The translations under genes were made by a program, and so were the position numbers. A DNA stretch of 64,000 nucleotides. It comes from Roseovarius sp. (GTDB lineage Bacteria; Pseudomonadota; Alphaproteobacteria; Rhodobacterales; Rhodobacteraceae). Below, piece by piece: positions 8,526 to 9,792 of this stretch. The stretch lies in NCBI RefSeq assembly GCF_027019125.1, contig NZ_JALUXE010000033.1, forward strand, positions 52,962 through 116,961, written 5' to 3'. The notes under the pieces are model-generated. The model did not search any database, was not told the origin of the DNA, and saw only the letters and a program-made list of their open reading frames with translations. How positions within the stretch are numbered: the stretch's first letter is position 1; the number at the start of each line of letters is the position of its first letter.

Positions 8526-8540
8526 TGCTGCATAGCAGCA
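8526..8540. promoter_or_regulatory. Palindrome TGCTGC-ATA-GCAGCA upstream of the DUF1127/sRNA operon
   Basis: A perfect 6-bp-arm inverted repeat containing CTGC-N3-GCAG, 114 bp before the DUF1127 start. From memory it matches the TGC-rich sites reported for PhaR, the polyhydroxybutyrate-responsive repressor of Paracoccus/Rhodobacter. A similar one-mismatch palindrome precedes the other DUF1127 gene (38336-38352). The regulator is inferred. Confidence 0.5.
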
Positions 8541-8653
8541 TTGCTCATGCGGGGTATTGTGCAGGCGCAGCAAAGGCGTATCTTAGTCTCAACAAAGGGC
8601 GAAACGAACTTCGCCGAACTTGAACACGATCAAATCCGCAAGGACCCGAAAAA

Positions 8654-8878
8654 ATGCCGACGACGTTTTACACCAGACGCTCTGCCGCCGCCGTTCTTGG
8701 CGAAGACCTGAGCGCGGCTGTTTATGCTGCCATGCAGCGTATCGTGGATTATCGCACCTATCGCCGCACGGTCAATGAGTTGTCGCAGCTCAGCGCGCAT
8801 GACCTCGCCGATCTGGGCCTGCACCGCAGCGAAATTCGCCGCGTTGCGCATGAAACAGTTTACGGCCACCGGTCGTAA
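8654..8878 (+). CDS. DUF1127 small protein, CcaF1-like
   Basis: A 74-residue basic protein. Its second half, RRTVNELSQLSAHDLADLGLHRSEIRRVAHETVYG, is the DUF1127 (YjiS-like) arginine-rich helical motif. It is followed 8 nt after the stop by an array of CCUCCUCCCU-loop hairpins. The arrangement matches the Rhodobacter sphaeroides RSP_6037 (CcaF1)-CcsR locus, where the protein was reported to bind RNA and the downstream RNAs are released from the shared transcript. I infer the same role here. The upstream 250 bp contain a CTGC-N3-GCAG palindrome; I could not pick out a secure sigma-factor motif. Confidence 0.9.
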   Translation: MPTTFYTRRSAAAVLGEDLSAAVYAAMQRIVDYRTYRRTVNELSQLSAHDLADLGLHRSEIRRVAHETVYGHRS

Positions 8879-8886
8879 TAAAGGAT

Positions 8887-8957
8887 CAGATACCCCCCTC
8901 CTCCTCCCTGGGGTATCTGTTACGGTCACGGGCATCTTTCCTCCTCCCTGATGCTCG
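8887..8957 (+). ncRNA. CcsR/cuckoo-type sRNA, first hairpin pair
   Basis: Hairpin 1 (8887-8919) has perfect 10-bp arms CAGATACCCC/GGGGTATCTG around a loop ending TCCTCCTCCCT. Hairpin 2 (8929-8957) has an 8-bp stem CGGGCATC/GATGCTCG (one G-U) around TTTCCTCCTCCCT. Double stem-loops with CUCCUCC loops are the defining fold of the cuckoo RNA family; R. sphaeroides CcsR RNAs belong here. The exposed CCUCCU copies the anti-Shine-Dalgarno sequence of 16S rRNA, so pairing with Shine-Dalgarno sequences of target mRNAs is a natural expectation. The true ends are not determinable by eye. Confidence 0.85.
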
Positions 8958-9000
8958 GGGCCGTCAAATTGGGACTGAACAGGTCCTTATGTTTTGCGGA

Positions 9001-9077
9001 TGGCCCTCTCCTCCTCCCTGGGCCGGACGTATAGGAAACGGCGGCACCCCTCCTCCTCCCTGGTGCCGCCGTTTTTT
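9001..9077 (+). ncRNA. CcsR/cuckoo-type sRNA, second hairpin pair with terminator
   Basis: Hairpin 3 (9001-9025) pairs GGCCC/GGGCC around TCTCCTCCTCCCT. Hairpin 4 (9036-9074) has 13-bp arms AAACGGCGGCACC/GGTGCCGCCGTTT around CCTCCTCCTCCCT and runs into a T-tract, so the last sRNA hairpin doubles as the intrinsic terminator of the DUF1127-sRNA transcript. All four loops share CTCCTCCCT while the stems differ in sequence, which shows selection on the loop and on pairing. Whether two double-hairpin RNAs or four single ones are made needs RNA data. Confidence 0.85.
9036..9077 (+). terminator. Rho-independent terminator of the DUF1127-sRNA operon
   Basis: A 13-bp perfect GC-rich stem followed by TTTTTTATT, the strongest intrinsic terminator in the window. 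Its loop is the fourth copy of the CCUCCUCCCU motif. Confidence 0.88.
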
Positions 9078-9162
9078 ATTGCGCGCAGGCAAAGCAGAGA
9101 TTTTCAGTGACATGACCGAACGGCTGGTGCCTCCGGTCGCCATTGGCCACGCGGCCCTGCCC

Positions 9163-9432: not shown

Positions 9433-9558
9433 CTTGCTTTTCTCCCCGACCGCACCCCGGGTCGGATGGGGCGAGAGCGGCAAGGGTCATGGCACGTCAG
9501 AGCATCGGCCTGGCGTGCACACGCCCGCACCGCACCCCGCGATTCGACGTCACGCCAA

Positions 9559-9740
9559 GGCTGGTTTCCGGGCTTGGACGGCAGGCCATGCGGCCCTCGC
9601 GTTGCGGCACCTTCCCGGGCAAACCTGCCCAGTGGCCTATTGCCGAAACGCCCTTCCTTACCGTTGCGGGGGCAGCGCCGGACTTGCACCGGCTTCCCAA
9701 TTCTCCGCCCCAAAGGGCGGCACCCTGACCGGTTCAGCCT
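9559..9740 (-). promoter_or_regulatory. Cobalamin (B12) riboswitch
   Basis: Read on the minus strand, the region contains the cobalamin-aptamer core in order: GGGAAGCCGGTGCAAGTCC, the B12-box part CTGCCCCCGCAACGGTAAG, the central CACTGGGCAGGTTTGCCC arm and the closing AAGCCCGGAAACCAGCC. These match the conserved elements of adenosylcobalamin-type riboswitches in sequence and spacing (~180 nt). It points away from osmC and into the 89-aa ORF at 9163-9432. I see no clear T-tract terminator after it. A GGCGTG-TG-CACGCC hairpin lies between the aptamer and the ORF. Confidence 0.92.
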
Positions 9741-9792
9741 AACCGCGCGGGCCCCCAAGCCGCAAGCCTGAAACCGACGCCGCCCGGACCGC

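Follow-up and report, generated by a model that had tools for sequence, protein, structure and literature searches.

The window analysed here, a 64-kb (64,000-nucleotide) stretch of a Roseovarius genome, contains a small DUF1127 gene that is followed by an array of RNA hairpins and preceded by a conserved control region. All of these features lie on the plus strand:

8529-8543, plus strand: site 1, a putative LsrB/VtlR-type LysR operator, TGCATAGCAGCATTG
8557-8572, plus strand: site 2, TTGTGCAGGCGCAGCA, with the near-invariant TTGTGCANNNGCAGCA; overlaps the inferred -35
8579-8584, plus strand: inferred -10 element TATCTT, conserved (TTGTGC-N16-TATCTT)
8654-8878, plus strand: ccaF1-like gene, encoding a 74-aa DUF1127 protein (PF06568, E 7.5e-15)
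8887-8919, plus strand: hairpin 1 (HP1), loop CCTCCTCCTCCCT, perfect 10-bp stem (RNAfold)
8922-8964, plus strand: hairpin 2 (HP2), stem of 8 bp and 6 bp flanking a 1x1 mismatch (RNAfold)
8971-8987, plus strand: short motif-free hairpin between the doublets (RNAfold)
8995-9031, plus strand: hairpin 3 (HP3), stem of 6 bp and 4 bp (RNAfold, covariation)
9032-9078, plus strand: hairpin 4 (HP4), 13 Watson-Crick pairs, 17 including the A/U tract (RNAfold)

The stop codon of the ccaF1-like gene is only 8 nt upstream of HP1, and a Mrp/ApbC-type ATPase gene lies divergently upstream of the ccaF1-like gene. The motif CTCCTCCCT occurs on the plus strand at 8901, 8941, 9011 and 9053 and nowhere else in the window. 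The four copies span 161 bp (8901-9061), and RNAfold places each of them within a 13-nt hairpin loop, the region 8876-9085 having a folding energy of -89.0 kcal/mol. Dinucleotide shuffles contain 0.31 copies on average, and four copies were reached in none of 100. The GC-rich stem of HP4 runs on into a T tract (TTTTTTA), and it is evident that this motif hairpin doubles as a rho-independent terminator. The short hairpin at 8971-8987, which separates the two doublets in the predicted fold, is possibly a processing spacer. The initial annotation had described four hairpins with the same loop and stems unlike one another, perfect arms of 10 and 13 bp in two of them (HP1 and the Watson-Crick pairs of HP4), a grouping into two pairs, a terminator as the last hairpin and a small DUF1127 protein encoded before the array, and this anatomy is borne out throughout.

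Nineteen distinct four-hairpin arrays with canonical spacing, taken from genomes of the same genus and from named relatives, were used to examine the stems. In this alignment, 88.8% of the cells are paired, compared to 34-43% after the 3' side has been shifted by 1-3 columns. Two-sided changes occur at 28 of the 47 stem pairs and in 94 cells, the shuffled means being 15.9 and 27.1, respectively, and none of 500 shuffles matched either observed count. HP1 is paired in 99.5% of the cells, with two-sided changes at 7 of its 10 pairs; HP2 has such changes at 12 of its 14 pairs; HP4 is paired in 94.7% of the cells. Across the 19 arrays the loops are almost unchanged while the stems turn over. The arrays were recruited via the loop motif, so that the loop conservation partly reflects how they were selected, but the stem covariation is not affected in this way. 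Because the loops are nearly invariant while the stems covary, the alignment provides strong evidence that the array is a functional RNA whose conserved part is the loop.

The Rfam model CcsR1 (RF02791) matches both doublets over its full length and is the top-scoring model for each, with 54.0 bits (E 2.2e-12) for 8991-9077 (HP3 and HP4) and 28.4 bits (E 8.1e-5) for 8883-8965 (HP1 and HP2). Both scores are below the gathering score of 65.3, and the array falls outside RF02791 in the strict sense. The ar14 model (RF02344) gives 49.9 bits in the HP3/HP4 region, short of its gathering score of 58.8. The unit of the CcsR1 model is two hairpins, and therefore two RNAs are expected at this locus. 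The cuckoo RNA motif of Reinkensmeier & Giegerich, as summarised in PMC4504443, consists of 2-4 hairpins with a conserved loop and helices without sequence conservation; as far as this summary describes it, the motif is matched by the four motif hairpins in two doublets, with their conserved loop and unconserved helices.

In Rhodobacter sphaeroides, the order of the locus is an RpoHI/HII promoter, ccaF1 (a DUF1127 gene, 71 aa), the CcsR RNAs and a rho-independent terminator (PMC10253847). The CcsR RNAs are processed by RNase E from the ccaF1 transcript with CcaF1 taking part; this protein reportedly binds RNA and promotes CcsR maturation (PMC10253847). CcsR is induced by stress through RpoHI/HII (PMC10253847) and modulates C1 metabolism; it is bound by Hfq and has flhR as a target (PMC8307010). 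The window has the same order, with a same-strand DUF1127 gene directly before the double hairpins and a rho-independent terminator in the last position, so the earlier assignment to the CcaF1-CcsR locus is supported, and to call this a ccaF1-CcsR (CIN1/cuckoo) architecture with two double-hairpin units appears essentially right. The likeness to ccaF1-CcsR1-4 includes the CCUCCUCCC loops of the double-hairpin units, the terminal hairpin serving as terminator, a putative TTG/TAT promoter and targets in C1 metabolism, which are predicted here. R. sphaeroides has four CcsR RNAs, whereas two predicted double-hairpin units are present in the window. The kind of array is itself already known. With the present one, an sRNA family that has already been studied by experiment is extended to Roseovarius, together with clear evidence of covariation and a concrete list of predicted targets.

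The rhizobial alpha-r14/NfeR1 RNA (RF02344) has identical CCUCCUCCC loops, divergent stems and an LsrB/VtlR-type box upstream, but it consists of three hairpins and is an independent gene without DUF1127, with its own promoter. The redundant anti-Shine-Dalgarno (anti-SD) loops of NfeR1 block the translation of ntrB (PMC10746234). AbcR1 and AbcR2 of the Rhizobiales, which form a separate family (RF02345), are part of a regulon in which the LysR regulator LsrB/VtlR activates anti-SD sRNAs through a GCAT-N3-TG-N3-T box. In Brucella, DUF1127 genes are activated as well. The Rhodobacterales differ from this system in having the DUF1127 gene and the RNA in one transcription unit.

The double-motif pattern is present in 47 of the 60 genomes of the genus (a mirrored-pattern control gave one match). 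A ccaF1 homologue was found in 49 of the 60, typically directly upstream of the array, and several genomes without the exact pattern have hairpin arrays with altered yet folding loops. The nearest named relative, by protein and DNA alike, is Roseovarius tolerans, and the named genomes matching the pattern are mostly Rhodobacterales and Rhizobiales. A single locus in the relatives can hold as many as 17 copies of the motif; the very long arrays L130, L142, L145 and L054, with 14-17 regularly spaced copies, suggest repeated tandem duplication of hairpin units. Plasmid pAK2 (189 kb) of Paracoccus sp. AK26 carries a DUF1127 gene and then a multi-hairpin cuckoo array at 66434-67502 (L444). Five arrays of the genus (L020, L035, L036, L047 and L048, from genomes G006, G032, G055, G053 and G035, respectively) have no ccaF1 homologue by search; their LysR-like element is only some 90 nt upstream of the first hairpin, an arrangement shared with rhizobial ar14 genes. 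Two ccaF1 homologues were flagged as having one in-frame TAA (G028:C24:187712-187891, at locus L019, and G046:C7:1955689-1955865). At L019 the open reading frame ending just upstream of the array reads through, and the flagged TAA is probably at the end or edge of the gene. A third CcsR1 match, of 25.1 bits at C5:36068, was rejected as a second cuckoo locus: it has no loop motif and lies beside CO-dehydrogenase-like genes.

New here is the region upstream of the ccaF1-like gene, which looks like a conserved switch resembling an LsrB/VtlR binding site. Site 1 is identical at 13 of 15 positions, and in many relatives at 14 of 15, with the reverse complement of the Brucella VtlR motif CAATGCAGCCATGCA (PMC12595884). 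The site is kept across Rhodobacterales arrays, and nowhere else in the entire genome does TGCATRGCWGCATTG occur as an exact copy. Site 2, TGCA-N3-GCAGCA, resembles site 1 at a distance of about 31 bp and may be a second site for the LysR-type regulator (LTTR). Transcription would start near 8591, which puts site 1 at about -62 to -48; the LsrB site of AbcR1 is at -61 to -49 (PMC8844928).

Site 2, on which the loci were aligned, is present in 91-93 of the 134 arrays with enough upstream sequence, the rest including chance matches outside the Alphaproteobacteria. In 91 distinct promoters most of the fixed positions of site 2 are near 2 bits, partly by construction as the alignment is anchored there. 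The two-part element, TGCATRGCAGCATTG and TTGTGCANNNGCAGCA followed by TATCTT, is mostly located about 310-380 nt before the first loop (91 distinct loci). The published LsrB/VtlR consensus is GCAT-N3-TG-N3-T (PMC7486931, PMC8844928), from which site 1, GCAT-AGC-AG-CAT-T, has one deviation (AG for TG). The strict consensus is found in 8 of the 91 promoters, with a shuffle rate of 0.3%. When T or A is allowed at the fifth fixed position it is found in 71 of the 91, always 26-27 nt before TTGTGC, this relaxation having been picked after the data were seen, so that the independent evidence consists of the strict count and the 13/15 match only. The arrays without ccaF1 carry GCATAGCTGC(A/G)TTGCAGC, nearly identical to GCATAGCTGCANTGCAGCAT before Rhizobium ar14 arrays. 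At Rhizobiales ar14 loci GCATAGCTGCANT occurs about 75 nt upstream of the first loop, and LsrB binds and activates the promoter of NfeR1, a member of the ar14 family. A search for a VtlR box at the remaining DUF1127 genes of the genome gave no clear result.

A candidate for the regulator is encoded in the genome at G000:C5:29493-30350 (L282). With the Rhizobium LsrB located beside its AbcR genes as a query, each of 13 genomes of the genus yields one clear homologue (241-259 bits, the next best at most 139). The homologue of this genome is a reciprocal best match, the reverse search returning LsrB with 250 bits against 151. The two proteins are 40% identical overall and share 46 of 62 residues (74%) in the DNA-binding region, compared to 26 of 62 for a paralogue. 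The sensor domain is divergent, so that functional orthology to LsrB is not proven. A 2025 paper has a section headed 'LsrB is a LTTR unique to Rhizobiales' (PMC11975290). About 6 kb separate the homologue from CO-dehydrogenase-like genes (C5:36012-36631; L169 and L170), and the large and the small subunit of these each have a loop-complementary GGGAGGAG site at the start.

In rhizobia, Agrobacterium and Brucella, the LysR regulator LsrB/VtlR is already known as an activator of anti-SD sRNAs and of DUF1127 genes. Control of the Rhodobacterales locus has so far been described, in the literature surveyed, only through RpoH sigma factors; the published account makes the ccsR promoter dependent on RpoHI/HII and mentions no LysR factor. 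The upstream element would fill this gap, as the same kind of LysR regulator would also control the Rhodobacterales locus. We consider it fairly probable that, throughout the Rhodobacterales, a LysR regulator of the LsrB/VtlR type exerts direct control over the whole ccaF1-cuckoo operon via the tandem operator of TGCATRGCAGCATTG and TTGTGCANNNGCAGCA, binding at the element being suggested by analogy with the relatives. If this is true, one redox-responsive regulator commands DUF1127 proteins and anti-SD RNAs throughout the Alphaproteobacteria, and the Rhodobacterales have welded these two outputs into one transcript.

It is unlikely that the element is an RpoHI/HII promoter and nothing else, conserved through sigma-factor contacts or on account of the divergent apbC/Mrp gene. 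The TTG and TAT are properly positioned and fit the RpoHI/HII -35/-12 description (PMC10673084), a spacing match that is not specific, and ccsR of R. sphaeroides does depend on RpoHI/HII (PMC10253847). However, the GCAGCA within the spacer is invariant, and site 1 is about 14-28 bp upstream of the -35, beyond the usual sigma contacts. A divergent apbC accompanies the element at 70 of 87 loci, but at 13 loci the element is present and no neighbouring apbC was detected, and for this reason it is not simply the apbC promoter. An operator of the PHB sensor PhaR/AniA in place of LsrB/VtlR is more doubtful still. Site 1 is a CTGC-N3-GCAG inverted repeat, TGC/GCA-rich as PhaR sites are, but neither site of the window fits the S. 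meliloti core YGCRNYGCR (PMC12542648), TGCATAGCA being without the second Y and the spacer of site 2 being longer. The fit of site 1 to the VtlR motif and the presence of GCATAGCTGCANT before the ar14 loci, whose family includes the LsrB-bound NfeR1 promoter, also speak against PhaR, which was set aside because of the consensus mismatch.

The loops are complementary to the start regions of several genes. The pattern GGGAGGAG-N2-12-ATG has 23 sites in the genome compared to 4 for the mirrored pattern, one of the 23 being inside an apparent DNA ligase gene and one being the antisense of the array. The loop-complementary starts include those of a XoxF-like PQQ methanol dehydrogenase and of the CO-dehydrogenase-like large and small subunits. 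Further sites precede the FAD subunit of another CO-dehydrogenase-like enzyme, a formate-dehydrogenase-like alpha subunit, a formyltransferase, three DctP proteins and a probable DctQ (TRAP transporters), a LivH-like permease, BenC and a purine/cytosine permease. The proteins related to CO dehydrogenase, scanned as fragments, do not reach the CoxL equivalog cut-off, and only the name 'CO dehydrogenase-like' is used. The GGGAGGA before xoxF is retained in 14 of the 16 orthologues with a readable ribosome site, and the predicted loop-target duplexes have energies of -16.9 to -22.2 kcal/mol with loop strain ignored. As GGGAGGAG near an ATG is in part a plain strong Shine-Dalgarno site, the counts by themselves are no proof of targeting and these genes are candidates only. 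The complementarity to C1 genes is fitting in view of the published role of CcsR in C1 metabolism. A comparison of array presence or absence with the ribosome sites of xoxF, considered as a natural experiment, was abandoned since most of the genomes without the exact pattern have altered-loop arrays.

Hairpin doublets of the same type are found in phages. Among viral contigs scanned for two copies of the motif, 31, with about 26 distinct sequences, have both copies in loops closed by stems at least 7 bp long; the reversed-motif control, which was small, gave 0 of 12. Low-complexity matches (L296, L306, L310, L312-L314 and L319) are not hairpins and were rejected. The IMG/VR loci with doublets, including L295, L299, L300, L303, L308, L316, L317 and L402, are free-standing and have CCUCCUCCC-type loops. 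Several doublets lie in early recombination and replication regions of temperate phages, beside CI-like repressors, a single-strand annealing protein, a RecE-like exonuclease, NinB or primase. Unannotated doublets are also present in complete genomes: that of Rhizobium phage RHph_TM3_3_3 (MN988468) has full motifs, and those of Rhizobium phage RHph_Y55 (MN988500) and Sinorhizobium phage phiLM21 (KJ743987) have partly altered loops. Some viral contigs, L333 and L337 among them, match ar14 itself and could be flanking host sequence; none of the other phage doublets tested reaches any Rfam gathering score for such RNAs. Viral contig IMGVR_UViG_3300028213_000054 (L303) has a ATGCTGCATTGCAGCAT inverted repeat just upstream of its doublet, like the LysR-type operator of the host. 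The doublets suggest that alphaproteobacterial phages may use the same anti-SD hairpins in their hosts. Together with the operator, they are the parts worth following.

By combining these data with what is known of the relatives, from which expression, processing and targeting at the locus are extrapolated, the operation of the locus can be outlined. The ccaF1-cuckoo (CcsR-type) operon very probably works as a stress-responsive source of anti-SD sRNAs. The DUF1127 mRNA and the four hairpins would be made as one transcript, ended by HP4, from a single stress-responsive promoter. A LysR regulator of the LsrB/VtlR type probably activates this promoter at 8529-8572, and an RpoH-type sigma factor may recognise it. 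RNase E, aided by the DUF1127 protein, would then cut the 3' part into two double-hairpin sRNAs. The loops, CCUCCUCCUCCCU, would serve as interchangeable anti-Shine-Dalgarno seeds that block the translation of mRNAs with GGGAGGAG-type ribosome sites. Repression is predicted for xoxF, the CO-dehydrogenase-like and formate-dehydrogenase-like genes and the TRAP importers, and the outcome would be lower C1 oxidation and uptake under oxidative stress.

That the hairpins instead act in cis, as a stability or attenuation element in the 3' UTR of the DUF1127 mRNA, with the shared loop as a protein-binding site and not an antisense seed, is very improbable: the array does lie directly behind ccaF1, whose R. 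sphaeroides product has the reported RNA-binding and maturation activity (PMC10253847), but the genus has ccaF1-less arrays with the promoter element directly before the hairpins, the phage doublets are free-standing, and anti-SD loops have been demonstrated to act in trans for NfeR1 (PMC10746234).

Downstream of the array, on the minus strand of the window, a cobalamin riboswitch is found at 9542-9742 (123.7 bits).
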